Shown: positions 45,070 to 64,000 of the stretch, in pieces
Layout: the number at the start of each line of letters is the position of its first letter
How positions within the stretch are numbered: position 1 is the first letter of the stretch
Assembly: GCF_025998175.1 (NCBI RefSeq)
Contig: NZ_AP026695.1
Span: 62,001-126,000 of the forward strand
DNA: 64,000 bases
Direction of reading: 5' to 3'
Source of the DNA: Nitrosopumilus zosterae
GTDB taxonomy: Archaea; Thermoproteota; Nitrososphaeria; Nitrososphaerales; Nitrosopumilaceae
Translations under genes and position numbers: made by a program
The notes under the pieces: model-generated
Databases searched by the model: none
What the model was told of the DNA's origin: nothing
The model's input: the letters and a program-made list of their open reading frames with translations, nothing else

Positions 45070-46425
45070 ATGTCTATTAGAAAATACGGTATCTTGGTCT
45101 TTTTGACATATTTAGTATTTCCAGCAAGTAATGTCTATGGACATGGATTTGGGATTGATACAATTTCATCCATAGATATTCAGGGAAAAGAATTATCAAT
45201 TTCCGTAGAGATGCCAATGTATTTTGAAAATACACAGGAACAAATTACAATCACTGCAACTGAAAAAGAAACAAAAGAAAATGCAAAAAATGTAACATTT
45301 CTAATTGGATTATTTCATGAGAATGAAATGATTTTTAGAAATTATTTTTTTGCTGATAATGGAATTTTACAAATTAAGGTAACGCCAACACAAGAAGAAA
45401 AAATTACAATTCATGGGGAACAAGACTCTTTACTTGGAGCTTGGCATGGAACTGAATCTAATCCTATAGAAGTCACTGGTCCATTATTTGATTCAGGAGG
45501 TCTATACAATTTTGAAATTGAGGTCAGAACTATTGATGAACCCACAAACATCATAGAGAATTCTGGTATTTATAATGCTGATTTGAGTTTGATTGAGATT
45601 ATCTCTTTTATTCAAAAGGATTCTGAAAACAATGATGTAGAATTTCGTTCAAAGTCATATTTTGATACAGTTTCTAATTTCAAGTATGATTTTGTGGCTA
45701 AAGAAGTTACATTTGAAATGCCATTTGATTGGAGTGAGAAACAAATATCTCACATACCTGTAGTTCATGTAGAAACTCATTTACCAAAAGATTTTGTAGA
45801 ATTTCTTTCTCCCAGCTATTCTGCATATGTAAATGGTGTCGAACTATTCAAATCCTCAATATCTGTTGATGATTATACAGAGGATGATGAAAGAATAATT
45901 CATCTTGTTTTATTACAAGATCATTTAAGATATTTGAAAAATGAAATGAAAAAATTAGATGAACCAATAACAGAAAATATGGTATTTAGAATATCTGCTA
46001 GTGAGAACACTGCATTTCCGCTGGAAGCGTATACAAAAAGTGAGGACTTTAAGGTAAATCTTTCATGGGATCCGTTAAAAGTAGAACCTGGAATTGACAC
46101 GAATTTTATTTTCACTATTAGAGACGGTAAAACAAATGATCCTTTACGAAATTCTGATTATACATTTGTCCTAATTCAAAATGGTAGAGAGATTCATCGT
46201 GTATCTGGAACTGCTCAAATAGGTGGAGAATTTGAAAAATTTATGTTTACTGACGATCAAACAGGTCCTACAATAATTAAATTTGAAAACATTAGAAATA
46301 CAGGACAAGAAACTGAATTTGCACTAGTTGTAGTACCAGAATTTGGAACTATTACATTATTGATATTAGTAATTTCAATAATGAGTATTGTTTTTGTTAG
46401 TAGAAGAAATCCACTAGCAATCTAA
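45070..46425 (+). CDS. HGxG-family secreted protein with PEFG-CTERM anchor
   Basis: Secreted, 451 residues. Signal peptide of 24 residues (NVYG cleavage), so the mature protein starts HGFGIDT. Two more histidines are shared by all four HGxG paralogs in the window: VVHVETHLP and ERIIHLVLL. Also FDSGGLYNFEIEVRT and FEMPFDWS, as in the paralogs. The C terminus is VVPEFGTI plus hydrophobic helix plus RR, a PEFG-CTERM sorting signal. Unlike its paralogs it lacks the tryptophan repeats. Metal binding is inference. Confidence 0.85.
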   Translation: MSIRKYGILVFLTYLVFPASNVYGHGFGIDTISSIDIQGKELSISVEMPMYFENTQEQITITATEKETKENAKNVTFLIGLFHENEMIFRNYFFADNGILQIKVTPTQEEKITIHGEQDSLLGAWHGTESNPIEVTGPLFDSGGLYNFEIEVRTIDEPTNIIENSGIYNADLSLIEIISFIQKDSENNDVEFRSKSYFDTVSNFKYDFVAKEVTFEMPFDWSEKQISHIPVVHVETHLPKDFVEFLSPSYSAYVNGVELFKSSISVDDYTEDDERIIHLVLLQDHLRYLKNEMKKLDEPITENMVFRISASENTAFPLEAYTKSEDFKVNLSWDPLKVEPGIDTNFIFTIRDGKTNDPLRNSDYTFVLIQNGREIHRVSGTAQIGGEFEKFMFTDDQTGPTIIKFENIRNTGQETEFALVVVPEFGTITLLILVISIMSIVFVSRRNPLAI

Positions 46426-46805
46426 AGCGCTACTAGCTTTACAGTATCCATGTTTTTGTTAGTCTGAAAATCTTTTGTAATCGTAGAAACTTTTTCTGCA
46501 TCACCATTGATCAAAAAGAGTTCCATGCATTTTTCTTTCTCGATTTTACTATGAAGATGCGTTGTGATTAAATCTTCAAAATTATGTGTTATTCCTGAAA
46601 CCACATGATCAAATTCATCATTATGTACAACCAAAAGAATTGCGTGAATGTTTCCAGATAAATCTGCTTTTTGTTTTTCTTCAGAAACAAATGATCTGAT
46701 TCCAGCTCTGATTGCCTCCGATCTCCCGGAAAACCCCATAGTTGTTTGCAGCTTGTCTAGTTCTGAGAGAATTTCATCGTTTAGGGAGATTGAGACTATT
46801 GGCAT
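46422..46805 (-). CDS. NikR-like metal-responsive regulator
   Basis: Ribbon-helix-helix regulator, 127 residues. N-terminal RHH (MPIVSISLNDEILSELDKLQ, GFSGRSEAIRAGIRSFV) and a C-terminal ACT-like domain with the NikR-type ligand set: ITHNFEDLITTHLHSKI and KCMELFLI. Divergent from the ZnuABC-type operon, so it probably controls that operon and itself. Whether it senses Ni, Zn or Cu cannot be read from sequence. Stop overlaps the end of the convergent secreted gene by 4 bp. Confidence 0.86.
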   Translation of the reverse strand: MPIVSISLNDEILSELDKLQTTMGFSGRSEAIRAGIRSFVSEEKQKADLSGNIHAILLVVHNDEFDHVVSGITHNFEDLITTHLHSKIEKEKCMELFLINGDAEKVSTITKDFQTNKNMDTVKLVAL

Positions 46806-46826
46806 ATGTATAATGTTATTAATTAT

Positions 46827-46877
46827 CTTATAAGTTTAGCAATTAATTTTATTAAGATTTTATAGATTTATTAATAA
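46827..46877. promoter_or_regulatory. NikR/znu intergenic promoter and dyads
   Basis: CTTATAAG (46827-46834) is a perfect palindrome about 25 bp from the nikR ATG and serves as its TATA box. TTATTAATAA (46868-46877), also a perfect palindrome, lies about 20-28 bp before the znuA GTG. Both are candidates for combined TATA/operator sites; AT-rich context means chance is possible. Confidence 0.4.
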
Positions 46878-46895
46878 TCCATAAAGAATTACAGC

Positions 46896-47795
46896 GTGAA
46901 TATTCAGATAAAAATGGCAATAATTGCAATTGCAATAATAATTCCATTAAGCTCACTTGTCGTGTATGGAACTGATTCCAAACCACAATTATCAAATACG
47001 AATAATTCAAAACTCCAAGTAATTTCATCATTTAACCCGCTTTACGAATTTTCACAAAATGTCGGACAAGAAAAAGTTGATGTTACATTACTTATTCCAG
47101 TAGGAGTTGAGCCTCATGATTGGGAACCAACTGTTAAAGATGTTCAAAGAATGCAAAATGCAGATCTAATCATTATCAATGGAATTGGATTTGAAAATTG
47201 GGTTGATAATTTGGAAGATACAGGTTATTCTGGTGAGATAATTGATACAAGTAATGGAATTTTAATCAAGACTGATGAAATTTCTTCAGTTTCTGGAGAC
47301 CCACATATTTGGTTAAATCCTGTTTATGCAAAAATTCAGGTACAGAATATTGCAAATGCGTTTTCTAATTCTGATCCTGCCAATGAACAATATTATCAAT
47401 CAAATGCTGCAAAATACATTGAAGAATTAGATCTACTTGACTCAAAAATTCGAAATGAATTATCTGATTGCAATAATAACTTTATATCTTTTCATGATGC
47501 ATTTTCATATTTTGCAGATGAATACAATCTAAATCAACATACAATAATTTCATCTAATGACCCACATGGAGAAGCTACTGCAAAAACATTAGAAAATATT
47601 ATTTCCACTGCTAAAAACCTTAACATTAACATAATTTTTGCAGAAGAAAGTGTAGACACTAGAACATCCACAATAATTGCAAATGAGATAGGTGGCAAAG
47701 TTTTAGTTCTGTCCCCCCTTGAAGTTGTAACTGATGGGACTTACATTTCTCGTATGACTGAAAATCTTGAAAATCTAAAGGAGGCATTATGTTGA
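46896..47795 (+). CDS. Metal ABC transporter substrate-binding protein (ZnuA-like)
   Basis: External cluster A-I binding protein for Zn, Mn or another divalent metal. N-terminal hydrophobic segment (IKMAIIAIAIIIPLSSLVVYG), then ISSFNPLYEFSQNV, IPVGVEPHDWEPT, GDPHIWLNP (His), FISFHDAFSYFAD (His) and DTRTSTIIANEIGG. These give the usual three His plus acidic ligand set. 299 residues. GTG start. First gene of the three-gene operon. Confidence 0.92.
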   Translation: MNIQIKMAIIAIAIIIPLSSLVVYGTDSKPQLSNTNNSKLQVISSFNPLYEFSQNVGQEKVDVTLLIPVGVEPHDWEPTVKDVQRMQNADLIIINGIGFENWVDNLEDTGYSGEIIDTSNGILIKTDEISSVSGDPHIWLNPVYAKIQVQNIANAFSNSDPANEQYYQSNAAKYIEELDLLDSKIRNELSDCNNNFISFHDAFSYFADEYNLNQHTIISSNDPHGEATAKTLENIISTAKNLNINIIFAEESVDTRTSTIIANEIGGKVLVLSPLEVVTDGTYISRMTENLENLKEALC

Positions 47796-48511
47796 AAATA
47801 GTTGAGATTGAAAATCTGACTGTTCAATATCCTGATGTTAAAGCATTAGATGATGTTAGCTTTGAGGTAAATCAGGGAGATTTTCTAGGCATAATTGGTC
47901 CTAACGGAGCGGGAAAATCTACGCTTTTTGATGTCATGTTGGGGCTAAATACAAAATACAAAGGAACCATCAAATTTTTTGGTGAAGATATTAAAAAATC
48001 AAAAGAATATCTTAAAGAAATTGGATATGTCCCACAAAAACCAATTTTTGAAAAAAATTTTCCAGTTACAGTGATTGATGTTGTGAGAATGGGACTAAGA
48101 AATGAAACAGATGAAAATAAGATTGATGAAGTTTTACAGCAATTATGGATTCATGAATTAAGAAATAGAAGAATTGGTGATCTATCTGAAGGTCAACAAC
48201 AACGAGTTTTCATTGCAAAAGCTTTGATTACAAATCCAAAAATTCTGATATTAGATGAACCTGTTACAGGAATTGATCAACAAAACATTGATTTGTTTTA
48301 CAGTATTCTTCGAGAATTAAACTCTAAACGAAAAATTACTATAATTTGGTCATCACATGATTTGGATGCAGTAAATCAACTAGCAAATCATGTGGCATGC
48401 CTAAACAGAACTCTGTTTTTCCATGGGGAATCAGAGAAATTCTTTTCAAATGACGAACTAATCAAACAATATTCTGAAGCATCGATGCAGGAACATATGC
48501 ATCATCACTGA
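47789..48511 (+). CDS. Metal ABC transporter ATPase (ZnuC-like)
   Basis: ATPase of the metal uptake system. Walker A GPNGAGKSTL, signature LSEGQQQRVFIAKAL, Walker B ILILDEPVTGID, H-loop SSHD. The C terminus ends EHMHHH, a possible metal contact. ATG is preceded by AAAGGAGG, 5 nt away, a strong ribosome site; it overlaps znuA by 7 bp. 240 residues. Confidence 0.93.
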   Translation: MLKIVEIENLTVQYPDVKALDDVSFEVNQGDFLGIIGPNGAGKSTLFDVMLGLNTKYKGTIKFFGEDIKKSKEYLKEIGYVPQKPIFEKNFPVTVIDVVRMGLRNETDENKIDEVLQQLWIHELRNRRIGDLSEGQQQRVFIAKALITNPKILILDEPVTGIDQQNIDLFYSILRELNSKRKITIIWSSHDLDAVNQLANHVACLNRTLFFHGESEKFFSNDELIKQYSEASMQEHMHHH

Positions 48512-48513
48512 AT

Positions 48514-49332
48514 ATGTCTCTAGAAATTCTAACCTTTAGTTTTATGCATAGAGCACTAATTTCTGGGATTGCAATAGCAATTCTTTGCTCAGTTGTTGGA
48601 TTATTCCTAGTTTTGAGACGTTATTCCTTATTTGGGGATGCCATAGCTCATTCATCATTTGGTGGAATTGCACTAGGATTGCTAGCTGGCATTTATCCAT
48701 TATGGACAGCATATGGAGTTTCAATTGCGAGTGCATTAGTTATCACAAAAATTAAAAATCGATACAACATTTCAGGTGATGCATCAATTGCAGTTCTTTT
48801 ATCCTCAGGCATTGCAGTTGGTCTTGTAATTATTGGGTTATCAGGTGGTTTTACAATTGATATCTTTAGTTTCCTGTTTGGAAGCATTCTGCTAGTTAGT
48901 GTGAACGATACTGTTCTAATTTTGGCATTAACTGGAGGAATTTTAATTGTAATTTTATTACTTTATCGTCAAATTCTTTATTCAACATTTAATGAAGAGC
49001 AGGCCAAAGTAAGCGGAATTCCAGTTGAGAAAATAAACTATCTAATTGTCTTCATGGCAGGAATTACTGTAGTTACATCAATACAACTTGTAGGCGTGTT
49101 GTTAATTTCAGCTCTATTTGTAATTCCAAATGTTACTGCAATTATGTATGGCAAAGGATTCAAACAAACTGCGATAATTTCCATGAGTTTCTCTATATTT
49201 TCTGTAGTTGTAGGAATTTTATTGTCTTACATATTCGATATAACTCCTGCAGGAACTATTGTTTTATTGGCAATTAGTTTACTTGCAGGAACTATGGGAA
49301 TAAAATCATCTGGATTGTTATCTAAGAATTGA
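48514..49332 (+). CDS. Metal ABC transporter permease (ZnuB-like)
   Basis: Membrane subunit with about 8-9 helices. Seen: ALISGIAIAILCSVVGLFLV, LRRYSLFGDAIAHSSFGGIA, the family signature of the ABC-3 permeases, then LISALFVIPNVTA. 272 residues. It ends 11 bp inside the convergent CopC-CopD fusion gene. Only one permease gene; it would form a homodimer. Confidence 0.93.
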   Translation: MSLEILTFSFMHRALISGIAIAILCSVVGLFLVLRRYSLFGDAIAHSSFGGIALGLLAGIYPLWTAYGVSIASALVITKIKNRYNISGDASIAVLLSSGIAVGLVIIGLSGGFTIDIFSFLFGSILLVSVNDTVLILALTGGILIVILLLYRQILYSTFNEEQAKVSGIPVEKINYLIVFMAGITVVTSIQLVGVLLISALFVIPNVTAIMYGKGFKQTAIISMSFSIFSVVVGILLSYIFDITPAGTIVLLAISLLAGTMGIKSSGLLSKN

Positions 49333-52108
49333 TCAAAGAATTTAATCTTCTTTTATCTTGTATGCTTTTTACATAGAATAAAGACGTTGCAATAATTCCT
49401 AATGCAATAAGTGGTGATGCAATTTCTGTGTATTTTAGTTCTGATCCACCTGTTGTTTGTATTTGTGATGCAATAACAGGGGTTTCCGTAATTTTCACTG
49501 TTCCTATTTTGTTTGCTTGTTGTTCAACAAACCACACATTATCATCTCCATCTGATGTCATGAATTGAACAAATGTTGATTCAGTTGGTACTGGAACTTC
49601 AATCAAATTATTGTTGTCTGGATCATATGCTCCAATCTTGTCTACTGTATGTTGTGCAAACCAAATATTTCCATATTTATCCAATGTCATTCCAAATGGT
49701 AATGCTTCTTCATTGGGAATTGAAATTCTATCGAATGTTTCCAAAACTGGATTAAATTTGGCAATGCCTAATCCTGTATGTTCTGCAATCCAGAGGTTTC
49801 CATCGTCATCAAAGAGTAAAGCCTCGGGACCTTGTAATGGGGGTTCAGCTGAAAATTCTGTTATCTTATTAGTTTTAGGCTCAATATATCCAATTTTTCC
49901 TGCACCTGTTGTTGAATACCATATTTTTCCATCATTATCAATTGTTAATGCAAATGGCAAGTTTTCTTTTCCAGACAAAACAATTTCTTCAAATTCATCA
50001 GTTTCTGGAGAATATTTTACAATTCTGTCTTTGTTAATGATAGTAATCCAGATGTTTCCGTCAAAATCTGCCTTGATAAATAATGGTGTATTATCTGAAA
50101 TCACAGGATCTAGTTTTGGGATTGTTTTTGTTGTGATTTGTTTGGTTTGAGTATCTATGAATCCAATTTGATTTCTAGGCGGATCCACAAACCAAATTCT
50201 TCCTTTATTATCTTGTGTGAGGAATGTTGTGACAAGTCCATCAAATGAGTATGATGAAAATTTTTGAGAATCAAGTGAGAATTGCCATATTCGTGATGCA
50301 TTTGCATCACTTATCCAAATTGAATTATGACCATCATATATTGGGAATAATGGTTTTGCATCTTTGTCTGGAAGTTCGTATTCAATAATTTGTGTTTGAA
50401 TGTCTCCAAGTCTTGGCTTTACAAGCAAATTCAAAAGCTTTGACTCACTTGCATTCTCTGTTCTTTGAGCTTCAATCTCTACTAGCCATTCTCCTGAAAA
50501 TCCAAATGTCAATTCTCCTTGGAATTCTAATGGTTTGCCTTCATTTTGTTTTATTAATTCCATAGGAACTTCAATTGGGGAAATAGCCTTAGATGGATTT
50601 GAAACCTTTACTTTGAGTTGATTTGAATCGTATAGTTGATTTCCTTCAAAGTCACTAACTTTAACTAAAATTGTGTTTGTTCCGCTTGAAAATGGAGAAA
50701 TGTCAATATCAAATTTTACATTTTCAGTAAATTCGATTGTCTTAAATCCATATACTACCTCTTGAGCGTCAACTTTCTGAATTTCACCAGCTGGCAATGT
50801 CCCATTAGCTAAAAGTGCAACTATTCCGAGAAGAACAATTCCTAAGGTCACATCAACCTTGAGTGATCTTTTTAGTTTTCTGTGAACTGAGATCTTTCCT
50901 GACTGAAAATTTTTTTCTGCATTTTTTTGAACTTTAAACTGGAAAAATCCTCCCAATCCAATCATCATTGCAGCAATTGTAATTTTAAGAATAATCAATT
51001 GACCATATACTGATTCTGTGATTAATCCTACATCACTTTCTAAGAACCACATCAAAGTTGGTCCTGTTATTATGACAATTCCTACTGAAATTATGAATGC
51101 TATTGAAAATCTAGGAATTAACAAAAGACTCATCTTCTCTCGATTTTTTTCTCGTAACTGAGAAAATGTTGGAAGCAACGCAAATACAAAATAGAAAATT
51201 CCTCCTATCCACACTGCTGCAACCAGATTGTGAATGTAATCTAATACCAGCGGTGCCATTTGACCAGTTGCTGCGCCATGCCCAATCAAACTTGTAGTTG
51301 AAATTAATCCCAACGAAACTATTAGCATTGGAATCTGATTTTTCTTTGATAGAGATTTTCTTTTATCCATTCCAAACCAAATACCAAGTAAAATTATTGT
51401 AATAATCATCCTAGCTAGCCATATTGTTCCAAAGTCTGTTCCTATCACAACTATTGGTGATATCTCTAGTCTGATAGTTTGAATTGCTAACATGAGAATA
51501 TCTGAAATGAAAACAAGCATTAATCCAATTCCAGTAATAGACATGAATTTTCCATGATGAAAGTTTTCTATTTTTTCTAATTCTTCTTTGATTAGTTGTT
51601 TGTTTTGTGTTCCCCAAATCATTAGTGATGCAATAACTGCACCTAAAACAATAGTTTGACCTATAATTCCTGGAAATCTTGCACCTGCTTCTGGTAAAAA
51701 TATAATTTCTGATGGTCTTTCTTGATCTAACAAAGAAGGATCAATTTCAACATCTCCTACTGCAAACAAAAATGCACTTGGAACAAGATGTCCATCAACT
51801 TTGGATAACACTTTGGTAGATGCAGTGTAAATTCCATCTTCCAGAGGTGGTGTTGTAACAATTAAGGATACTTCTCCTTCATAGTAACTGGTGTCCTTAT
51901 TGTCAATTTGATTCCCTTCGCTATCAAATACTTTGATTTCACTAAAATCAATATCAACTCGTTCTGAATAATATACAATTACTTCTGTAGTTCCTGCAGG
52001 CGAACTTGATGCTAAACTAGGAATTGTTTCTTCTGTAAATGGATGTGCATATACAAATGGGATAGATACTGATGATAAAATTAGTAAAATAATTGCAATT
52101 TTTTTCAT
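49322..52108 (-). CDS. CopC-CopD-beta-propeller (Vgb-like) fusion protein
   Basis: 928 residues combining three modules. Signal peptide 1-21 (FVYA); mature protein starts at His22 with a CopC domain (about 22-122), whose Cu(II) ligands His22, Asp105 and His107 (KVDGHLV) are present. CopD-like membrane domain with about 8 helices (about 150-450), including LDYIHNLVAAVWIGG. Then an external region and six Vgb/streptogramin-lyase-like blades (about 590-890, each with a G-x-I/L/V-W motif such as NIWFAQHT), and a final helix. Likely copper import or sensing at the surface; CopC/CopD function follows the family, the propeller's role is unknown. Confidence 0.9.
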   Translation of the reverse strand: MKKIAIILLILSSVSIPFVYAHPFTEETIPSLASSSPAGTTEVIVYYSERVDIDFSEIKVFDSEGNQIDNKDTSYYEGEVSLIVTTPPLEDGIYTASTKVLSKVDGHLVPSAFLFAVGDVEIDPSLLDQERPSEIIFLPEAGARFPGIIGQTIVLGAVIASLMIWGTQNKQLIKEELEKIENFHHGKFMSITGIGLMLVFISDILMLAIQTIRLEISPIVVIGTDFGTIWLARMIITIILLGIWFGMDKRKSLSKKNQIPMLIVSLGLISTTSLIGHGAATGQMAPLVLDYIHNLVAAVWIGGIFYFVFALLPTFSQLREKNREKMSLLLIPRFSIAFIISVGIVIITGPTLMWFLESDVGLITESVYGQLIILKITIAAMMIGLGGFFQFKVQKNAEKNFQSGKISVHRKLKRSLKVDVTLGIVLLGIVALLANGTLPAGEIQKVDAQEVVYGFKTIEFTENVKFDIDISPFSSGTNTILVKVSDFEGNQLYDSNQLKVKVSNPSKAISPIEVPMELIKQNEGKPLEFQGELTFGFSGEWLVEIEAQRTENASESKLLNLLVKPRLGDIQTQIIEYELPDKDAKPLFPIYDGHNSIWISDANASRIWQFSLDSQKFSSYSFDGLVTTFLTQDNKGRIWFVDPPRNQIGFIDTQTKQITTKTIPKLDPVISDNTPLFIKADFDGNIWITIINKDRIVKYSPETDEFEEIVLSGKENLPFALTIDNDGKIWYSTTGAGKIGYIEPKTNKITEFSAEPPLQGPEALLFDDDGNLWIAEHTGLGIAKFNPVLETFDRISIPNEEALPFGMTLDKYGNIWFAQHTVDKIGAYDPDNNNLIEVPVPTESTFVQFMTSDGDDNVWFVEQQANKIGTVKITETPVIASQIQTTGGSELKYTEIASPLIALGIIATSLFYVKSIQDKRRLNSLINS

Positions 52109-52201: not shown

Positions 52202-52840
52202 ATGATATCTGTGAAGCTAGTAATTTTTGGATTTATTGGACTATTGTTTAGCATTGGAATGATTGATGCTTCATTTGCACATACCACCGTAGAAGTAGAA
52301 CAATACCACATTGAAGCAGGATGGGGAATTGAACCACCTGTTGTAGGAATTAGAAACGACATTGTCTTTAAAATCACTGAACCTGGAGAAACTGAGGGAT
52401 CCTACAAGGGAGTCACCAATGTATTCAGAAATGTAGAAGCTACAGCAATGTATGGTGGAGCCGCCAAAAAAATCGATATCAATTCTGATCCACGACCTGG
52501 ATATTATTTCTCACCCATAATTCCAACTAAAACTGGAGGTTACATTATGAATCTGCAAGGAGATATTCGTGGTACTATTATTGATATTAAAATTCCAGTT
52601 GAGGATGTAGAACCTACTGCAGTCTTGGATTTTCCTCCTACAAGTAATGAAGGTACTGCAGACATTACTGCACTAAAAAATGCATTATTATCACTTCAAC
52701 AAGATGTTTCTAAATTACAGTCTGGCGAAACTTCTGTATCTTCGGATGGTGGAGCAGCTTATGACTTTGCAATATTTGGATTGTCAATTGCAGCAGCAGC
52801 TATTGTCTTGGCAATTATTGCTTTAGTAAAAAGAAAATAG
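52202..52840 (+). CDS. Secreted His-start protein with C-terminal membrane helix
   Basis: 212 residues. Signal peptide to residue 26 (ASFA), so the mature protein begins HTTVEVEQYHIEAGW, a beta-rich domain with internal histidine. Then a Ser/Thr and coiled segment (ITALKNALLSLQQDVSKLQS) and a C-terminal helix (FAIFGLSIAAAAIVLAIIAL) with KRK. ATG 52202 is chosen because an earlier in-frame start adds a non-signal-like stretch. Function unknown; next to the CopC-CopD gene and divergent from it. Confidence 0.78.
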   Translation: MISVKLVIFGFIGLLFSIGMIDASFAHTTVEVEQYHIEAGWGIEPPVVGIRNDIVFKITEPGETEGSYKGVTNVFRNVEATAMYGGAAKKIDINSDPRPGYYFSPIIPTKTGGYIMNLQGDIRGTIIDIKIPVEDVEPTAVLDFPPTSNEGTADITALKNALLSLQQDVSKLQSGETSVSSDGGAAYDFAIFGLSIAAAAIVLAIIALVKRK

Positions 52841-52852: not shown

Positions 52853-53722
52853 CTAAAATCTTGGAATGACTCTAGATTTTGCAGTTACTGCAACAATGCT
52901 TATGATTGCAACAGCTAGTACCATCATTGCAATTGTACCAAATTCTGGTACAACATTTGAGAATACTACTTCTTCACCAATTGGTCCTGTTTTAGGATCT
53001 TCAACACCGTAACCTTGGAAGGTAACAGTGATGTCTACTGGATCAGAAGAAGTTAATGGTGCTGTCGTATGCATGCCTGTGCCTTCATGATGATGTGCGC
53101 CTTCGTCCATCAAAACTTCTACACCATTCTGTGTTACCATCATATCGTGGTTAACATGTTCTGCATCTTCAAATTCAATGGAAATTTCCATTGCTTCGCC
53201 TGCAGTTGGTGTTGAAGTCCAAATAGAAACCATTGTGCCGTCAGATAACATTCCGGTTGCAGTTGCTGCACCTTCCATGCCCATCATTTCGTCATCATGC
53301 TCGTCATCATGTTCATCCATAGCTTCTGCTTCTTGTACTACAATCAATCCTTGCATCCAAGGATGAACCATACAGAAGTAAGGAACTTCACCAATTGTGT
53401 CAGGAGACCATTCAAATGAATTTCCTGCCATTAACAATCCGGTATCAAATTCTCCACTTGGACCATCTTCAGGAGTTCCTGCTGTGAATGTATGTGCTGC
53501 TGTATCCACATTTGACATGATTACTTTGCCACCTACATCAACTGTTGCAGTACTTGGAATGTAACATCCCTCTGCAGTGTCTTCACATCCTGGAGCTCCA
53601 GAACCTGGTGCTGTCTCAATTGTGACTTCTGAGTGATCTGCAAAAGCAGCTGGTGTTGTTGCAACTATTCCAGCTACAATAGCAAATAGTACGAAGAAAG
53701 AGCAAATTGCTTTAGTCTTCAT
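52853..53722 (-). CDS. Plastocyanin-like cupredoxin with second domain and PEFG-CTERM
   Basis: Surface blue-copper protein. Signal peptide to about residue 28 (AFA), cupredoxin domain 29-132 with full ligand set His77 (AAHTFTAG), Cys117, His120, Met123 (FCMVHPWMQG); a His/Asp/Met-rich linker (EHDDEHDDEMMGMEG); a second beta domain (about 150-255) rich in His and Met; and the VVPEFGTI sorting signal. 289 residues. Likely electron carrier or copper store on the cell surface. Codon use is of the high-expression type. Confidence 0.92.
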   Translation of the reverse strand: MKTKAICSFFVLFAIVAGIVATTPAAFADHSEVTIETAPGSGAPGCEDTAEGCYIPSTATVDVGGKVIMSNVDTAAHTFTAGTPEDGPSGEFDTGLLMAGNSFEWSPDTIGEVPYFCMVHPWMQGLIVVQEAEAMDEHDDEHDDEMMGMEGAATATGMLSDGTMVSIWTSTPTAGEAMEISIEFEDAEHVNHDMMVTQNGVEVLMDEGAHHHEGTGMHTTAPLTSSDPVDITVTFQGYGVEDPKTGPIGEEVVFSNVVPEFGTIAMMVLAVAIISIVAVTAKSRVIPRF

Positions 53723-53779: not shown

Positions 53780-54598
53780 CTAGTCTTTTCTAAACTGGTA
53801 CAACTTTAGAATTCCAAATACTGGAATTCCTGCATACATTACAATGTTTAGTAGAACTATAGAGATCCCATATCCTAACATCTCTTCTTCTGAATCAATG
53901 CTTACGTGATTCAATAAAGATAATGATGTTAACATTGGAGTTAGTGCAAGTTTTACTGCTTCTTTGAATATCGGGTTCTCGCGTTCAAAGTCTGCAATTG
54001 CTGGTGAAAATGAGTAATAGAATTGATTGAAACCTGTCATAAATACAATCCCAGATTCAGTTGATAAAATAGTATTATCTCTGAGTTCTCTTAATTGTTG
54101 AACTTGTGGAGCCATTTCAGAACCATATGTTGCAGTGGCAATTAGACATCCGCCATTTTCTCCATTAACTCCATTTTCAGGAGGAATCATGGGTTGAGCT
54201 TGAGCTTCACCTACTACAATATCAAAAGAAACCGCTTCTGCTGGAATTGGTTGGAATAAAATTCCTTCAATGTTAAAACTCATAGTGTATACTCCTTCAC
54301 CAAGATTGAATTCAATTGGAATCTTTACAGAACCTATTGATGTATGTGTTAATGGAATTGGACCAAATACAGTCTCACCATCTTTTGAAACTGATACAGT
54401 GTAATCAATATGCTCTTGGATTTTTTGTGTTTGAGGATTGATAAAATCAATATTTATTTTTGTTTGAATATTTGGATCTATCTCATCATATGTTAATTTA
54501 ACATCTAGTGTTCCTTTTTCAGTTGGAAGTATTTGTGATTCTGCGAATGCTGGAATTATTAATAATGGAATTAACAGTAATACAAACAGAAATTTCAT
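53780..54598 (-). CDS. Secreted CFI-box protein
   Basis: 272 residues. Signal peptide (1-19, PAFAES), a beta domain (about 25-130), a Pro-rich linker and a CFI-box C-terminal domain: CLIATATYGSEMAPQVQQ, LRELRDN, YYSFSPAIADF, and a final helix (ISIVLLNIVMYAGIPVFGIL) with KLYQFRKD. The CFI box has one cysteine (GGCLIATA), which may anchor or link the protein. Possibly a surface-anchored sensor or sorting signal; no function is established. Confidence 0.78.
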   Translation of the reverse strand: MKFLFVLLLIPLLIIPAFAESQILPTEKGTLDVKLTYDEIDPNIQTKINIDFINPQTQKIQEHIDYTVSVSKDGETVFGPIPLTHTSIGSVKIPIEFNLGEGVYTMSFNIEGILFQPIPAEAVSFDIVVGEAQAQPMIPPENGVNGENGGCLIATATYGSEMAPQVQQLRELRDNTILSTESGIVFMTGFNQFYYSFSPAIADFERENPIFKEAVKLALTPMLTSLSLLNHVSIDSEEEMLGYGISIVLLNIVMYAGIPVFGILKLYQFRKD

Positions 54599-54707: not shown

Positions 54708-56420
54708 ATGTTGTACCATAAACTTGCATTATCGATGATAATTATTGGTATTTTTGCAATTCCTGTTGTTATTCCTGATGTATTTGCACATGGACTTGGA
54801 GGAGATCAAGCTCCACCAATTAGCTTTGGTGATATGGAAGTCACTGTACGTACACAACTAAGTCCATCTGATATCACTGTTGGTGACATCGATTCAGCTA
54901 ACATGCAAGTGCGCTTTTTCGATACGCTAACTGACAAGAATCTTGATAAAGTTACTTACAGAGTGGAAGTTTGGCAAAGTGGAGAACTTTTAGCTAGAAA
55001 TCTATTTTATGATATGGATGGAAGATTAGATGTAAAAATCAAGCCACAACCTAATTGCAATGAAGAACATCTTGAAGAATGCTCCATTTATGGTGGTTCA
55101 GAACATGTTAGCGCACCAGGAGCGCTATTTGTTCAAGGAGCTGAATGTACTGATGATAATTTAGATATTTGTGCAAGACCGTCAATTACAGGCCCAATTT
55201 TTGTAAAGGGCGGATTATACAAGATTAGAGTTGACATTGAAGCAGCTACCAGTCCAAGAACTGTGTTAGCTAATTTACTAAGTTATGAAACTTTTGTCAG
55301 TGTTGCACAAGAACAAGACTTTTTTATCAAAACTGCTAATGCTGAAGAAGTTCCAGTAGTTGTAAAAACATACTATGATGATGTTGATAATTTTAAATTT
55401 GATACATCTAATAATTCAATTTCATTTGACATGCCCTTTGATTGGAATCCATCTTATGTTGATTTAGTGCAAGTTGTACATGAAGAAGTAAGAGTTCCAA
55501 AAACATTTACTCCTTATGCTGAAGGAACACAATTCAAAGGATATGTTAATGGTGTAGAAATTGATCAGAGAGCATTACTAAATGATCCCTATTCATATGA
55601 AGATACCAACATTATACATTTTCTAATTACAAAAAATGAATTGCAAAAAATCAATGAAAAATTAGGAGCCGACAATCACAATAACCCAAAAATGGATTTA
55701 AAACTAGTTCCATTACCTGAAGCTTCAAAAAGCTCTACAGAATTTTATCTAGTTGATACCACAAACTATGAACAAGTCCCAACCACTGTAAAAATTTCAT
55801 GGGATGGGAAATATGGTGCAAATCAAGAAATTCCATTCGAGTTTGCATTCTTCAATGAAAATAGAGAACTCATAAAAGATATCAAATATGCATACTTTGT
55901 TTTTGATGAATTTGATCAAGAAATTGCTAGTAATGTTGGTGATGACACATCAAGTCTTGGAATTCCTTCTACTGAAGGAATTGACGTTCAAAGAATTTTT
56001 GTGCCATCTCAAGGTCAAATTAGAGTTGACGTTAAAGTTTTAGGAACCGGATTGGATTACAATCCAAAGTATGCAGGAATTGGTTCGGCAATTATTGAAA
56101 TAGGTCCAGGTGCTCCTGTTTCTGCATCTTCGATACCTGAGAAAGCAGCAATTCCTAGTTGGATTAAAAACAATGCTGAGTGGTGGGCAGCAGGACAAAT
56201 AGATGATGATTCATTCATTCAAGGAATTCAATTTTTGATTAAAGAAAATATCCTGAAAATTCCTCCAACCACGCAAGGCTCTAGTTCAGTCTCAAATGAA
56301 ATTCCTAGTTGGATTAAAAACAATGCTGAGTGGTGGGCAGCAGGACAAATAGATGATGATTCATTCATTCAAGGAATTCAATTTTTGATTAAAGAAGGAA
56401 TTATGAGGATTCAATCATAG
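54708..56420 (+). CDS. HGxG-family secreted protein with two tryptophan repeats
   Basis: 570 residues. Signal peptide to residue 27 (DVFA); mature start [10 protein letters not shown]. Shared with the paralogs: [35 protein letters not shown] and NIIHFLI. The C terminus has two copies of a 50-residue repeat ([31 protein letters not shown]) at 56151 and 56301; the DNA of the two copies is identical over 97 bp. A TATA-like TTTAAATA lies 22-29 bp upstream of the ATG. Role unknown; a metal-binding surface protein is proposed. Confidence 0.82.
56150..56396 (+). repeat. Identical 97-bp DNA repeat within the gene at 54708
   Basis: Positions 56150-56246 and 56300-56396 are identical by eye, in frame, 150 bp apart. 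They encode the two tryptophan repeats. Neighbouring repeats in the other paralogs are only similar, so this copy was duplicated or converted recently. Confidence 0.85.
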
Positions 56421-56661: not shown

Positions 56662-58218
56662 TTGAGAAATTCTTTACTGATTTTAACTCTAATATTATCA
56701 TCTGTTCTTATATTGACATTTGATAATGTCTATGGTCATGGAGTTGGAAGTGAAACTTTTCCTCCTGTAGAATTAGATGGAAGATTAGTTACATTGGAAG
56801 TTTCATCTTCAACAAGTGATCCTGACACTAATGATGACCAACAAATATCAATTTCATTAATTGATTTTGATTCAAAAGTTACTCTACGAGATGTTACTTT
56901 TTTGATTAAATCACAACGTGGTGAACAATTTCTATTTGAACAAGAATTCAAAGCTGATAATGGATTCATAGTTTTTAATTTTGTATCTGAACAAACTAAT
57001 TCTATAATTATTGAAGAAGATCATGGAGGTAATCTGTTTGGTTCATTACTTGGACTTGATAGCAGAATGGTTCATGTAAAAGGACCAAAACTTAGTGAAG
57101 GCGGACTATACAAATTTGATGTTACTATACTTACTGCAGATGGATATTCTAAAAAACTAATGAACCCTCTAGTTTTTAATGCTGGAATATCTATTGCCCA
57201 AACTACACAATTTGATTTTATTGATCCAAATTTTGGAGATCAATATGTACAAGTAATATCATACTATGATAAAATTTCGAATTTCAAATATCAACCTGAT
57301 TTAAGAGAAATTAGTTATTCAATGCCTTTTGAATGGAGCCAATCCAACATTAATCAAACATCTGTTGTTCATCAGGAACTTGTAATTCCAAAAAATTTTG
57401 GTGATTTGTTAGTGTCGGGATTTTCGATGTATATTAATTTTGTAAAGATCTCAGATGATGTTGTAAACATTGATGATTTTTTTTCAGATCAACGTGTAGT
57501 TCATTTTATAATATATCAAAAGGAATTGCAAAATGTATTTCATTTTAATCCCAATCAAAACGAAATGAATTTCATAATAAAACCAGACCGTGACTATTCT
57601 CATTTAAGCTCAGTCACTGAAAATGGACAATTTAGAATTCTAGTATCTTGGGAACCTGAGAATCTAAAATCTAATTCTAATGCAAAAATAATTTTTGATA
57701 TTACCGATATTTTCTTAAAGAATAGACCTGTTGCTGCAAGTTATGACTTTTCAGTTACACAAAATGATAAAATAATTTTTGAACAAAGTGGAATTAGCAG
57801 TGATTCAAAAGAACAACATAATGTTGCAGAATTTCTGATTCCTCAGGATATAACAGGTGTTGTAAATCTAAATTTTAAAAATTTAGACAATAACAATCTT
57901 GCAAAAACAACAATTCCAATTGTGATTGATCGAATTTCAGATCAAAACGGTGAATTCATTCCTGATTGGATTCGAAACAATGCATTATGGTGGTCTGAAG
58001 AACAAATTGATGATAATACATTCATTCAAGGAATTGAATATCTAATTAAAAACAAAATCATAATTATTCCAGAAACTCAAAAAGAGTCTTTACAATCTAA
58101 AGAGATTCCATCATGGATTCGAAACAATGCAGCTTGGTGGGCGGCAGGACAAATTGATGATAAAACATTTGTTCAGGGATTGGAATTTTTAATTCAAAGG
58201 GGAATTATTCATGTTTGA
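56662..58218 (+). CDS. HGxG-family secreted protein with two tryptophan repeats
   Basis: 518 residues from TTG 56662 (MRNSLLILTLILSS). Signal peptide to residue 25 (NVYG), mature start HGVGSETFPPVE. Paralog motifs: LSEGGLYKFDVTILT, YSMPFEWS, VVHQELVIP and VVHFIIYQ. C-terminal repeats at about 57958 and 58105 (147 bp apart): IPDWIRNNALWWSEEQIDD and [20 protein letters not shown] start here because a longer reading frame extends through the preceding 68-aa gene without any signal peptide. Confidence 0.8.
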   Translation: MRNSLLILTLILSSVLILTFDNVYGHGVGSETFPPVELDGRLVTLEVSSSTSDPDTNDDQQISISLIDFDSKVTLRDVTFLIKSQRGEQFLFEQEFKADNGFIVFNFVSEQTNSIIIEEDHGGNLFGSLLGLDSRMVHVKGPKLSEGGLYKFDVTILTADGYSKKLMNPLVFNAGISIAQTTQFDFIDPNFGDQYVQVISYYDKISNFKYQPDLREISYSMPFEWSQSNINQTSVVHQELVIPKNFGDLLVSGFSMYINFVKISDDVVNIDDFFSDQRVVHFIIYQKELQNVFHFNPNQNEMNFIIKPDRDYSHLSSVTENGQFRILVSWEPENLKSNSNAKIIFDITDIFLKNRPVAASYDFSVTQNDKIIFEQSGISSDSKEQHNVAEFLIPQDITGVVNLNFKNLDNNNLAKTTIPIVIDRISDQNGEFIPDWIRNNALWWSEEQIDDNTFIQGIEYLIKNKIIIIPETQKESLQSKEIPSWIRNNAAWWAAGQIDDKTFVQGLEFLIQRGIIHV

Positions 58219-58272: not shown

Positions 58273-58674
58273 TTGATCACTTTGTTTAGGCCTGAAAGAA
58301 TAGTTGAAAGAAAATCAACTCTATTTTCAATTGTAGTTACTGGCGTTATTGCAATTCTTGCTTTGCCAATAATTATTCCACATCTTTTACATGGATATCA
58401 TCTTGTACACATTTTCCTACATGTTGGAGGAATTACACTTGCAGTCTTCATTTCGGTGCTTGCAGGAGCTGCATACTACAGATTAAGAACAAAAAGACTT
58501 TTGCTAAGCGCTGCGGCATTTACTAATTTTATTGCAGCTGAAGTTGTTTTGCTATTTGATGCTACATGGCCAAATATCTATAATCTAGGCGGAATGTCAT
58601 TTCCCGAAGTTGGACATTTGTTGACTTTTATTACCTTGGGACTATTGGCTTTGGGAGTGTTTAGAAATGACTGA
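58273..58674 (+). CDS. Small polytopic membrane protein
   Basis: About 133 residues with four hydrophobic segments (STLFSIVVTGVIAILALPII, HIFLHVGGITLAVFISVLAG, LLLSAAAFTNFIAAEVVLLF, HLLTFITLGLLALGVF). Histidines lie near membrane faces (HLLHGYHLVHIFLHVGG). TTG 58273 or TTG 58282 as start. The next gene, a winged-helix regulator, overlaps its end by 8 bp, suggesting a membrane sensor paired with a regulator. Confidence 0.7.
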   Translation: MITLFRPERIVERKSTLFSIVVTGVIAILALPIIIPHLLHGYHLVHIFLHVGGITLAVFISVLAGAAYYRLRTKRLLLSAAAFTNFIAAEVVLLFDATWPNIYNLGGMSFPEVGHLLTFITLGLLALGVFRND

Positions 58675-59167
58675 TAGAAATTCACAATTACAGCAAATCA
58701 TTGAAGAAAATCCTGGAATTCAATTCCGTGAAATAATGCGTTCATCTGGATTAAAAAATGGCGTACTCAGTCATTATCTAGGAAAATTAGAAAAAAGTGG
58801 AATAATCAAAGTTATTCGTGGTCCACGGCAAGCCAGATTCTATCCACCTAGAATAACCGAAAACGAATCTATTGTTATCAAAGCTCTAAGAAAAGAAACT
58901 CCACGTGATCTGTTACTTGCACTGATCAAAGAAGATGGATTAGAATTTAATCACCTAGTAAAAGAAGTTAGAAAATCTCCATCAACTGTTTCGCTTTATC
59001 TTTCCCAGATAGTTGGTGATGGACTAGTTGAAATAAAACTAGTTCAACTCAAAAAGAGATATTATATTAAAGCAAGAGAGCTCATAGATAAATTAGTTGA
59101 AGAATATAGGCCAGGCTTACTTGAAAAACCAACATCCGGATTTGAAGATATCATCAACTCTTTCTAA
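58667..59167 (+). CDS. Winged-helix transcriptional regulator (double wHTH)
   Basis: 166 residues, two winged-helix domains: IIEENPGIQFREIMRSSGLK then NGVLSHYLGKLEKSGIIKVI (residues 10-50), and LIKEDGLEFNHLVKEVRKSP then STVSLYLSQIVGDGLVEIKL. Resembles archaeal ArsR/MarR-like tandem regulators. Co-transcribed with the preceding membrane protein; may control the surface genes around it. Confidence 0.82.
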   Translation: MTDRNSQLQQIIEENPGIQFREIMRSSGLKNGVLSHYLGKLEKSGIIKVIRGPRQARFYPPRITENESIVIKALRKETPRDLLLALIKEDGLEFNHLVKEVRKSPSTVSLYLSQIVGDGLVEIKLVQLKKRYYIKARELIDKLVEEYRPGLLEKPTSGFEDIINSF

Positions 59168-60615: not shown

Positions 60616-62181
60616 TTGAAAATTTTAGCCTCAATAACCGTGATTTGCATTATATTTTCATTTGCAATAATTCCAAATGTGTTTGGACATGGATTGGGTG
60701 GAGAAGTTTTACCGCCCATAATCATTGAAAATAAACAGGCTTCACTTTCAATCAGTATAACGCCATCAGTTTTTGATGAAAATCCTGAAAAATACATCTC
60801 ACTTAGACTCTTTGATTCAAACACTGATGCAATAATTGAACATGTTACATTTGAATTTGAACTAAAAAAAGACGGCAAACAAATTTTCAAAGATATTTTT
60901 CATGATGAACTTGGAAATCTCAACATCAAAGTATTCACAGATAATTCAAACAATATTACAATAGAGGGAATCAAAGAGCCAATTTTAGGCGGTTGGATGA
61001 AAAGCAATTCCAATCCATTAATTCTTAGAGGTCCAGTTTTTACTTCTGGAGGATTATATGAATATACTATAAAAATTCTATCAATTAATTCTGATTCTAA
61101 TATAATTAATGAAGAAATAATATTAGATGGTGGAATTAGTCTTGCCCAAACAAATTATTTCAATGTAAATGATTACCTAAATGAAGAAAAAACACTACAA
61201 GTAATATCTTATTTTGATACTATAAACAACTTTAATTTTGAATCAAATACAATAGAATTTTCAATGCCATTTGATTGGAATCAAAATCTTGAACAACTAA
61301 GTGTGGTTCATCAAGAAATTAGAGTGCCAAATACTTTTGGAGACTTTCTTTCAACAAGATATGATTCAACAGTTAATGGCATTCTACTACCAGACGAATC
61401 TGTAACAATTGATGATTATTCTTTTGAAGATAGGACAATCCATCTAGTTGTAAATCAGGAATTAATCAAACAAATCCAAAATGAGGCAATACGGACATCT
61501 GATACAACAATGAATTTTCAATTAAGACCGAGTGAAACTGTCAAATTTCCCCTAGAATTAGTAACTCCTGATTTAAGATACGAGGTATTTTTGTCATGGG
61601 AGCCTGAAATTATCCATACAGAAGGCGAAATTACGTTTTTTGTTACTTTTGAGGAGATTTTCTCAGATAAATCAAAAAAACTCGTAGAATATGATCTATC
61701 GATAATCCAAAAAAATAACGAAATATTTTCAAAACATCTAACAGGAAATGTAAATTCTCAAACACCAAATTCACACAAAATCACATTCAGTAATGAACAA
61801 TCTGGCACTGCAAATTTTGTTTTATCTAACATAGGCGGAAATTCCTTATCTAAAGGAAATTTTATTCTAGTTATTCAATCTCCTAGTGATATTCAAAATG
61901 ATTCATCAATAATTCCAGAATGGATTAAAAATAACGCAGCATGGTGGGCTGACGGTTCCATAGATGACAATTCCTTTGTACAAGGAATTCAATTCTTAAT
62001 AAAAGAAGGTATTTTGCAAATACCTTACACTACACAAGGTAGCAGCTCAACTTCAAATCAAATTCCAGAATGGATTAAAAATAACGCAGTATGGTGGTCT
62101 GAAGGTACAATTGATGACGACTCATTTATTCAAGGAATTCAGTTTCTCATAAAAGAAGGTATTTTGCAAATAACAAGCTGA
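60616..62181 (+). CDS. HGxG-family secreted protein with two tryptophan repeats
   Basis: 521 residues, TTG start. Signal peptide to residue 24 (NVFG), mature start HGLGGEVLPP. Paralog motifs: FTSGGLYEYTIKILS, FSMPFDWN, VVHQEIRVP and RTIHLVVNQ. C-terminal repeats at 61912 and 62062 (150 bp apart): IPEWIKNNAAWWADGSIDD and IPEWIKNNAVWWSEGTIDD, joined by the linker TTQGSSSTSNQ, close to the linker in the 54708 gene. The closest relative of the 54708 protein in the window. Confidence 0.82.
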   Translation: MKILASITVICIIFSFAIIPNVFGHGLGGEVLPPIIIENKQASLSISITPSVFDENPEKYISLRLFDSNTDAIIEHVTFEFELKKDGKQIFKDIFHDELGNLNIKVFTDNSNNITIEGIKEPILGGWMKSNSNPLILRGPVFTSGGLYEYTIKILSINSDSNIINEEIILDGGISLAQTNYFNVNDYLNEEKTLQVISYFDTINNFNFESNTIEFSMPFDWNQNLEQLSVVHQEIRVPNTFGDFLSTRYDSTVNGILLPDESVTIDDYSFEDRTIHLVVNQELIKQIQNEAIRTSDTTMNFQLRPSETVKFPLELVTPDLRYEVFLSWEPEIIHTEGEITFFVTFEEIFSDKSKKLVEYDLSIIQKNNEIFSKHLTGNVNSQTPNSHKITFSNEQSGTANFVLSNIGGNSLSKGNFILVIQSPSDIQNDSSIIPEWIKNNAAWWADGSIDDNSFVQGIQFLIKEGILQIPYTTQGSSSTSNQIPEWIKNNAVWWSEGTIDDDSFIQGIQFLIKEGILQITS

Positions 62182-62221
62182 ATAATGTTATTATACAAAT
62201 TTTAATCAAATAAAATCACAA

Positions 62222-62998: not shown

Positions 62999-63031
62999 AC
63001 GCATAAATCTCCGAATCTATCTGAAATTTTT

Positions 63032-63208
63032 ATGCCGTTGATTACAGTTTCAATGTATCCTGGTAGAACGCAGGAACAAAAAGACGAGTATGCAAAAGCA
63101 ATAACAAAATCTGCAGTAGAAATTCTAAAAACAAAAGAGAATCATGTTATTGTTATTTTTGAAGACAATCCTAAAGAAAATTGGTTTCTAGCGGGAAACC
63201 AACTTTAA
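63032..63208 (+). CDS. 4-oxalocrotonate tautomerase-like protein
   Basis: 58 residues: MPLITVSMYPGRTQEQKDEY, then AKAITKSAVEILKTKENHVI and VIFEDNPKENWFLAGNQL. After methionine removal Pro1 would be the catalytic base, and the PGRTxEQK pattern is the family signature. A TATA-like element is not clear. Substrate unknown; likely a tautomerase of small keto acids. Confidence 0.85.
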   Translation: MPLITVSMYPGRTQEQKDEYAKAITKSAVEILKTKENHVIVIFEDNPKENWFLAGNQL

Positions 63209-63293
63209 TTATTTTTAAAATAGCTAGCCTCCACACTTAACACTTGTTGGCTATGCCGTAAAATCATACATATTTGATTTCAGAATTATGTCA

Positions 63294-63312
63294 GTACATT
63301 CTACGAATGTAC
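63294..63312. promoter_or_regulatory. Inverted repeat upstream of the His-rich secreted gene
   Basis: GTACATTC-TAC-GAATGTAC is a perfect 8-bp inverted repeat with a 3-nt centre, 13-38 bp before the possible ATG starts of the next gene. A tight dyad like this near a promoter is a plausible metalloregulator site; an RNA hairpin is the alternative. Confidence 0.5.
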
Positions 63313-63349
63313 CAATTTTCTTTTTATGATAAATGTGATGCCATACTTG

Positions 63350-64000
63350 ATGACAACAAAAACTATCTTGATGATATTGCCAATTCTATGTGCAATTGCT
63401 CTATTGTTTACTCCGTCAACTGTATATGCTCATGCAGGACATAATCATGGTGGTGGTGGATGTTCAGATTGTAATCCACCTACATTAGGTGTTGATGCAA
63501 GTGGAAAAAGACAAGTTTCTGGAGGATTAACCATCAACGGTCAGACATTTGATGCAGAAGCATTCAAACAAGATCTTGATTCTCAAATTCTCCAAATTGG
63601 GGAACCTGTAGAGATCACACTAAAAATATATGATAATAGAGGATATAATGAACTAAAACATGTCGAGCTGAATCTGGGTTACGAGGAAAAACTCGTGTCT
63701 GGAGTAATGATTCCACATCATCCAGTTACCATAGAATGGAGTAAGACGTTTGATGGAAAAACTACTACAACTGTTTTTGACAAACAAAAACTACTCAAAG
63801 ATGTCAATGTTCAGGTTCTTGACAACAGTCCAATTATTGGTGTAAAGTTTAATTTTACACCTGTACAAAAATTTGACGCAAATACAATTGTCACAAAGAT
63901 CTGGGATCAAAAAAGAAATGCCAATACGAACTATTTCCATAACGCGCTAGACATAATCTCAAATAAACCTGCACCAGTTTTGGCAAATACTCTAAATTCT
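63350..64000 (+). CDS. His-rich secreted protein, 3' end outside window
   Basis: Open to the window edge (217 codons). Signal peptide from ATG 63350 (MTTKTILMILPILCAIALLF, STVYA cleavage), so the mature protein begins HAGHNHGGGGCSDCNPP: several His and two Cys at the very N terminus, suited to metal binding. The rest is beta-rich with IPHHPVTIEW and a later FHNALD segment. Starts at 63326 or 63338 are also possible. Function unknown; it continues the His-first surface set. Confidence 0.75.
   Translation, partial: MTTKTILMILPILCAIALLFTPSTVYAHAGHNHGGGGCSDCNPPTLGVDASGKRQVSGGLTINGQTFDAEAFKQDLDSQILQIGEPVEITLKIYDNRGYNELKHVELNLGYEEKLVSGVMIPHHPVTIEWSKTFDGKTTTTVFDKQKLLKDVNVQVLDNSPIIGVKFNFTPVQKFDANTIVTKIWDQKRNANTNYFHNALDIISNKPAPVLANTLNS

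Follow-up and report, generated by a model that had tools for sequence, protein, structure and literature searches.

A likely copper-handling surface locus with CopC-CopD, NHis and GHG proteins in an ammonia-oxidising archaeon

How copper-dependent ammonia-oxidising archaea (AOA) gather copper and place it outside the membrane is the question raised by a locus of Nitrosopumilus zosterae, in which seven secreted proteins had been predicted to start with histidine in their mature form and to make up a surface copper system. An N-terminal His is a known copper-gripping arrangement, and in the open literature that we searched no report of N-terminal-His copper proteins of AOA was found. The locus lies at the end of a window of 64,000 nucleotides, i.e. 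the whole stretch of DNA analysed (contig NZ_AP026695.1, positions 62,001 to 126,000), and its features are given in Table 1.

Predicted histidine starts and their statistics

All seven genes proved to be real: at each predicted place the frame is open and encodes a hydrophobic leader, and His directly follows a plausible signal peptide in every one of them. Using a home-made signal-peptide score, which is crude and takes no account of the +1 residue, Pro and downstream hydropathy excepted, the best cut falls directly before His in six of the seven (45070, 49322, 54708, 56662, 60616 and 63350). For 52202, the score favours a cut three residues upstream of the His site (6.7 versus 6.0); the cut at His is nevertheless favoured here because Ala or Gly, then His, is found in all 72 family members reaching the N-terminus. 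For 63350, whose complete gene (L002:1326-2198) was obtained from the genome, a cut after HA scores nearly as well as the one before His (8.5 versus 8.8), and a His start is seen in only 2 of 13 homologous stretches.

The frequency of His at +1 in signal-peptide-like ORFs was compared with a background consisting of 20 stretches of 20 kb from the same genome together with the window's initial 45 kb. With the score cut-off set at 6, such starts amounted to 5/11 in the region versus 2/83 in the background (Fisher, p = 1.6e-4), and at stricter cut-offs to 3/9 versus 2/68 (cut-off 6.5, p = 0.010), 3/9 versus 1/47 (cut-off 7, p = 0.011) and 2/6 versus 0/31 (cut-off 7.5, p = 0.023), all of these tests counting paralogs as independent. 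The published background rate of N-terminal His is 2.6% (PMC12537917). Four of the seven genes are paralogs (GHG1 to GHG4, with 23-32% identity to 45070), so that the seven represent four independent families; for this reason, and because 63350 is weak, the notion of seven independent cases was abandoned.

Table 1. Features of the locus (positions in the window; a slash marks the predicted signal-peptide cut).
Feature	Position	Strand	Predicted mature start	Predicted His1 codon	Remarks
GHG1, GHG-family protein	45070..46425	+	SNVYG/HGFG	45142-45144	C-terminal PEFG-CTERM (TIGR04296, 43.7 bits, cut-off 25)
NikR-type regulator	46422..46805	-			Optional cluster module; NikR_C (45.6 bits), RHH_1
ZnuA-type binding protein, ABC ATPase and ABC-3 permease	46896..49332	+			Optional cluster module
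CopC-CopD fusion	49322..52108	-	PFVYA/HPFT	52043-52045	C-terminal Vgb-like propeller; DGH motif
NHis protein	52202..52840	+	DASFA/HTTV	52280-52282	Beta-sandwich domain, C-terminal TM helix (predicted)
Cupredoxin-like protein	52853..53722	-			PEFG-CTERM; cupredoxin assignment by reading the sequence
CFI-box-CTERM protein	53780..54598	-	Starts ESQ		Secreted; NF041770 (76.3 bits, cut-off 40)
GHG2	54708..56420	+	PDVFA/HGLG	54789-54791	Two C-terminal WIKNNAxWW repeats
GHG3	56662..58218	+	DNVYG/HGVG	56737-56739	Two WIxNNAxWW repeats
Winged-helix regulator	58667..59167	+			Often in cluster; HTH_24, HTH_5/ArsR
GHG4	60616..62181	+	PNVFG/HGLG	60688-60690	Two WIKNNAxWW repeats
63350 protein	63350..64000, beyond window end	+	STVYA/HAGHNHGGGGCSDC	63431-63433	Weakly supported

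CopC-CopD, NHis and the order of the cluster

The gene order CopCD-NHis-cupredoxin-CFI-GHG2 is kept in all 36 loci in which both ends are present, and a related cluster also occurs in family f2 and in genome G099. Among the neighbours named by the original prediction, CopC-CopD was confirmed, whereas the ZnuABC/NikR module turned out to be optional: at least four genomes (L082, L088, L093, L096) have otherwise intact clusters, CopCD included, that lack it, and it was therefore rejected as core of the system. The amicyanin match of the cupredoxin-like protein (E 0.092) is far below the amicyanin cut-off.

The CopC-CopD fusion is above the Pfam cut-offs for CopC (32.9 bits, cut-off 23.3), CopD (56 bits) and Vgb_lyase (175.5 bits), and joins to its CopC domain a predicted N-terminal His and the DGH ligand motif, which we take to be the Cu(II) site of CopC. 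In 56/56 homologous stretches, the aligned start is His and DGH is present. Counting against a copper-handling explanation, CopC/D of N. maritimus has been reported to be down-regulated under copper limitation (PMC7785015).

His1 of NHis is unchanged across a 41-row tree of length 21.5. The NHis model has an ordered N-terminus and a predicted C-terminal helix (residues 158-185), which would be inserted in the membrane. CrdA, FetP or CopC account for 11 of the 16 structure matches with Z of at least 8, and the Foldseek list is topped by generic Ig-like folds. The best fold match is H. pylori CrdA (Z 11.0, rmsd 2.2, 97 aligned), which, however, is devoid of His and uses Met to bind copper (PMC9182242). 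P19/FetP gives a modest match with Z 9.6 (rmsd 3.4, 109 aligned), and CopC aligns to NHis only from model residue 8 onwards, indicating that the His1 residues of the two proteins occupy different structural places. At the sequence level, the PDB search with the NHis profile returned 22 matches at E up to 1, the best of which (E 2.1e-5), like most others, covers the C-terminal stalk and helix. The comparison of folds covered the families listed by VIA-align.

Regarding genomic context, one NHis relative lies between two nosL genes on a Thermus plasmid, one of Natrinema has a cbb3 oxidase, SCO and CopD in its vicinity, and another adjoins CopC-CopD in the AmoA-negative genome G108; among three distant relatives, two have copper-linked contexts and the third is without a copper neighbour. 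An eighth His-start gene, a relative of 52202 (AFA/HSAKV, L002:2177-2953), is situated just beyond the window end.

The arrangement is similar to B. subtilis YcnI-YcnJ (a DUF1775 protein and a CopC-CopD-YtkA fusion), in which a CopC-CopD fusion likewise stands beside a small extracellular beta-sandwich protein. YcnI carries His at its N-terminus and a TM helix at its C-terminus, and 52202 has the same traits by prediction, extracellular beta-sandwich included; Cu(II) exchange between YcnI and YcnJ has been published (PMC12362106). The systems differ in that DUF1775 had no Pfam match in 52202 (E 0.1) or in 41 NHis members (E 0.01), and in that the place of YtkA in YcnJ is taken by a Vgb-like propeller in the AOA fusion. 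YtkA (PF13115) is likewise not matched by any AOA NHis member at E 0.01, while the distant Natrinema relative, starting AAA/HETQ, reaches 36.1 bits (cut-off 25.9). NHis has the look of an archaeal YcnI counterpart for CopC-CopD.

Conservation and distribution of the GHG family

Among 129 GHG members, position 1 is His in 112, Asp in 13 and Gln in four, with 3 changes on the tree versus a median of 20 and a constraint rank of 9 among 384 columns; Gly2 is even more conserved. The first mature residue of histidine-brace proteins is His; in GHG such a start is predicted and conserved, with Asp or Gln in 17/129. Further into the protein, His208 (122/125), Glu210 (122/125), Asp242 (124/125) and His252 (123/126) are nearly invariant; His208 and His252 would be candidates for the second His that a histidine brace places near His1. 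Asp1 is found in 9 of the 11 members of family f3, in which no CopCD was present within the six loci read, and in four members of family f1.

Short GHG members (L012, L211) retain His1 without the middle domain, so that His1 does not require His208/His252. One Gln1 ortholog group is devoid of His208, Glu210 and His252, and another Gln1 member retains all three. Gln1 members start with QHHSG, QHHGG, QHHGA or QMHGG, and a His at position 3 would fit an ATCUN-type site; one idea, drawn from these motifs, is that such a site may be present in these members, although a further one starts with QALG.

The family is found in 70/70 AmoA-positive and 0/24 AmoA-negative genomes, tracking AmoA in all 94 genomes compared. 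Since AOA are a single clade, this co-occurrence may reflect one gain. AmoB of the same genome also reads ADA/HG at its predicted mature start, and no relation between AmoB and GHG was found by family searches; a published native-gel study names AmoX, AmoY and AmoZ (PMC10030591).

Apart from sorting tags, no Pfam or NCBIfam family matched GHG above cut-off. The mature form of GHG4 was modelled with AlphaFold (mean pLDDT 94.2). The GHG N-terminal domain gives a modest match to FetP with Z 8.5 (rmsd 3.6, 112 aligned), near the stated background of the tool (7 to 8); GHG and NHis both resemble FetP by fold, and no sequence relation of P19/FetP to either was found in profile and family searches. 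Homology between GHG and NHis themselves is not claimed, the only profile match being a meaningless one of 32 columns, at 0.6% probability, which involves the C-terminal domain of GHG. The signal-strapping families DUF4198, DUF6702, Ang-1 and Ang-2, for which metal binding has been measured, are similarly secreted beta-sandwich proteins with a conserved N-terminal His (PMC12537917), but GHG and NHis differ from them in having no such Pfam match. The sole archaeal mention that we found in that study is a remark on DUF4198.

Weighing the explanations and the proposed role

Taken together, these results suggest that the locus is likely a copper-handling surface locus comprising CopC-CopD, NHis and GHG, an explanation that we hold with moderate confidence. 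Alternatively, GHG might be structural or adhesive envelope proteins with Ig/MG-like domains and surface-anchoring repeats, whose HG/DG start would be constrained by folding or signal peptidase and not by metal. In line with this, the whole GHG model matches strings of MG domains (C3, alpha-2-macroglobulin; Z 8-9.5, rmsd 10-18), which at these rmsd values we read as generic Ig/MG architecture, and the C-terminal domain matches Ig-like domains of GH2 (Z 8.1, rmsd 3.0, 96 aligned); moreover, modules of the PEFG-CTERM and WIKNNAxWW types also occur in other proteins, Asp1 is tolerated and Gly2 is conserved above position 1. However, the four conserved inner residues together with His/Asp1 look site-like rather than scaffold-like, and GHG stays in fixed vicinity of CopCD and NHis, so that we consider a purely structural role unlikely, if far from negligible. 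That the run of His starts is mostly due to coincidence and duplication, with a single paralog family and one CopC among unrelated neighbours, appears very improbable: the reduction to four independent families, the poor conservation in 63350 and the modest enrichment at strict cut-offs (p 0.01-0.02) speak for it, but conservation and synteny across AOA families far exceed local chance.

The identity of the metal is a separate issue, as the N-terminal-His proteins might bind Ni or Zn for ZnuABC-type uptake under a NikR-type regulator. NikR_C, ZnuA and ABC-3 genes do lie inside the cluster, a GHG gene adjoins ZnuABC and NikR in the f2 genome G053 (L224), and the N-terminal-His family DUF4198, whose genes lie near NikR_C genes, has a preference for Ni(II) (PMC12537917). 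Yet the absence of this module from intact clusters that keep CopCD, and the contexts of CopC and NHis, which indicate copper, make this reading quite unlikely. Distinctly improbable, finally, is a role of GHG as unrecognised extracytoplasmic copper enzymes or AMO-loading factors, with a putative centre of His1/Asp1, His208, Glu210, Asp242 and His252; as such, GHG could act in ammonia or hydroxylamine oxidation itself, beyond holding copper.

According to the preferred copper-handling explanation, CopC-CopD would take Cu(II) at its N-terminal His and hand it to the membrane, and NHis, by analogy with YcnI and YcnJ in Bacillus, may, anchored in the membrane, hold or exchange Cu(II) as a partner of CopC. 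The four GHG proteins would be extracytoplasmic, and their mature His1-Gly2 end, if cleavage occurs at His, would be a functional metal chelator. Metal binding by GHG is plausible, and the proteins probably retain Cu(II) on the cell surface, perhaps by means of His208, Glu210, Asp242 and His252, which would then meet His1 in one site. From there, as we infer for both copper specificity and delivery to AMO, bound Cu(II) might flow as a pool to CopC, cupredoxins or AMO. The surface copper group originally predicted is supported in part, for CopC-CopD, for NHis with its copper-protein-like predicted fold and for the GHG family found in all AmoA-positive genomes compared, and is weaker with respect to 63350, the ZnuABC/NikR genes and the Asp1 proteins of f3.

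Overall, these results put forward NHis and GHG as two testable protein families. If GHG binds copper N-terminally, these archaea would possess a lineage-specific surface copper pool, which would be assayable with purified protein and traceable in metaproteomes.

Histidine starts and the families that carry them

The source genome, a single contig of 1.775 Mb, carries archaeal AmoA, and the organism is thus an ammonia-oxidising archaeon (AOA). All seven genes for which a histidine start had been predicted exist, and a signal-peptide score placed the top cut directly before the histidine in 6/7; this score is crude and, proline excepted, blind to the identity of the +1 residue. For 52202 it favoured a cut three residues upstream, and here the cut before histidine is favoured by an Ala/Gly-His pair kept in 72/72 members. 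Histidine at +1 was enriched in the region (5/11 versus 2/83, p = 1.6e-4; only 0.01–0.02 at stricter score cut-offs), in tests that count paralogs as independent; a report on N-terminal histidine gives a background of 2.6% (PMC12537917). Since 45070, 54708, 56662 and 60616 are mutually paralogous (GHG1 to GHG4), the seven genes represent four families rather than seven. Named relatives of 54708 are mostly Nitrosopumilus.

The GHG family

Using the mature 60616 sequence, we obtained a confident, mainly beta model (mean pLDDT 94.2; residues 1–10, pLDDT 80), which we divide into a beta-sandwich at the N-terminus, a one-helix middle domain and, at the C-terminus, an Ig-like domain; these limits are our own reading. 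The C-terminal end of GHG1 is a PEFG-CTERM tag; that of GHG2, GHG3 and GHG4 consists of two WIxNNAxWW repeats. Apart from this tag, Pfam and NCBIfam scans returned no family over cut-off, and a sequence search of the PDB found no relative with E of 1 or below. The C-terminal WIKNNAxWW module is also carried by many secreted proteins, among them 59097 and a second copy of NHis, the small, predicted membrane-anchored beta-sandwich protein encoded by 52202.

Position 1 of GHG is His in 112, Asp in 13 and Gln in 4 of 129 members from three families of organisms (f1, f2, f3). A quick 73-member tree (total length 44) requires four changes of its state; on the 69 tree rows shared with the alignment it needs 3 versus a median of 20, ranking 9th of 384 columns. 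On these rows a single change is seen at Gly2 and at Asp242, two each at Trp197, His208 and His252, and three at Glu210 (mature 60616 numbering). Secreted proteins normally tolerate variation at their first mature residue, so this constraint supports a functional GHG N-terminus.

Residue 1 and the middle-domain residues thus each show conservation. His208, Glu210 and His252 are retained in 11/13 Asp1 members, the other two being short and devoid of that region, and the histidines are retained in a Gln1 member of G099. The case for one joint site is nevertheless thin, because three full-length Gln1 orthologs (own L007, L101, L102) have lost His208, Glu210 and His252 while retaining Asp242, and short members (L012, L211) keep the His start without the middle domain. 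GHG relatives at L007, L101, L102, L072 and L212–L215 start Q-H-H or Q-M-H, and their histidine at position 3 may form an ATCUN-type site for copper or nickel. Asp1 occurs in 9/11 members of f3, presumably the soil family, in which six loci of 18–20 kb contained neither NHis nor the CopC-CopD fusion (CopCD, 49322); it also occurs in f1, twice within a still recognisable cluster (L225, L228).

Among 81 genomes of the class, the GHG profile (E ≤ 1e-10) and Archaeal_AmoA pick the identical 69 and are absent from the identical 12. In an order-level set of 14 genomes, one of them (G069) a repeat, the single AmoA-positive genome, G099, has four long GHG matches, and the 13 AmoA-negative genomes have none save a match to the C-domain only in G105 (E 3.9e-6); 4/12 newly added AmoA-negative genomes are <90% complete. 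GHG is thus found in 70/70 AmoA-positive and 0/24 AmoA-negative genomes. A phylum-wide draw gave a match in 25 genomes and none in 126, of which all 20 listed lie outside the class. With AOA taken as a single clade, the distribution may reflect one gain without loss.

The CopCD–NHis cluster

Both CopCD and GHG2 were present in 36/51 loci scanned, at least two genomes being counted twice (L088/L209, L084/L189), and NHis, a cupredoxin and a CFI-box-CTERM protein (CFI) lay between them in 36/36, four with an additional CFI or NHis copy. An f2 locus (L218) groups CopCD, GHG, NHis, CFI and GHG, and a single G099 contig carries GHG, NHis and CopCD. The ZnuABC/NikR neighbours of the original prediction are present in this cluster, but the module is missing from L082, L088, L093 and L096. 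A propeller fused to CopC-CopD is retained in f2 and other AOA clusters.

Features of the cluster and related loci (bare numbers, window; L, locus; C1, source contig)
Feature	Coordinates	Strand	Remark
AmoB	L244:3903-4526	-	predicted start ADA/HG, same genome
158-aa Met- and His-rich ORF (MMNDPNMMNQW type)	L244:8404-8880 (C1:254404-254880)		close to amoABC
CopC-CopD + virginiamycin-B-lyase-like propeller fusion	49322-52108	-	propeller 175.5 bits
NHis paralog fused to two WIRNNAKWW repeats	L002:2177-2953 (C1:126177-126953)		directly after 63350, outside window
Further NHis paralog	C1:31153		
WIKNNAxWW repeats	56160, 56310, 57967, 58114, 61921, 62071		plus 18 more matches genome-wide

His1 of NHis is invariant: a tree with 41 rows and length 21.5 shows no change there and one each at Trp15 and Glu18. 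The NHis model (mean pLDDT 84.0, pTM 0.60) exceeds 90 in every block through residue 110 and closes with a long helix. Sixteen structures matched with Z of 8 or more; 11 of these entries are CrdA, FetP or CopC, several being the same protein, and the others are DUF4426, CBM56, DUF4785 and two more; the Foldseek list is largely generic Ig-like folds. As CrdA is described as having no His (PMC9182242) and the CopC alignment starts only at model residue 8, NHis appears to share their fold, but not necessarily the site.

Three distant relatives lie on plasmids: one in Thermus reads LA/HES and is flanked by two nosL genes, one in Natrinema reads AA/HET and has SCO, CopD and a cbb3 oxidase nearby, and around the third, in Natronorubrum, 4 kb on either side contain no copper gene. 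An NHis relative in the AmoA-negative genome G108 adjoins CopC-CopD, so the pair is independent of ammonia monooxygenase (AMO). YcnI-YcnJ, for which Cu(II) exchange and growth phenotypes are reported (PMC12362106, PMC13344008), is the closest working model.

Homologs of 63350 have a His start in 2/13 stretches (own and G088), a third (L121) being ambiguous, and in most others the domain is embedded in larger proteins. Because a second NHis gene follows in both genomes, 63350 may have a link to metal, though a weak one.

Copper and ammonia oxidation

AmoB, the known copper control, has after ADA a predicted HG start like that of the GHG family, and the Met/His-rich ORF near amoABC possibly binds Cu(I). 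Copper limitation is reported to raise CopC/D in N. viennensis and, in N. maritimus, to lower CopC/D and raise a lone CopD (PMC7785015); H2O2 exposure increased a CopC-domain protein in three Nitrosopumilus strains (PMC6593220). Possible roles are uptake, storage and the assembly of oxidase or AMO.

Taken together, CopCD and NHis likely form a Cu(II) pair and the GHG proteins are plausible N-terminal metal holders. We infer that the metal is copper, not nickel or zinc, and that it would be delivered to AMO.
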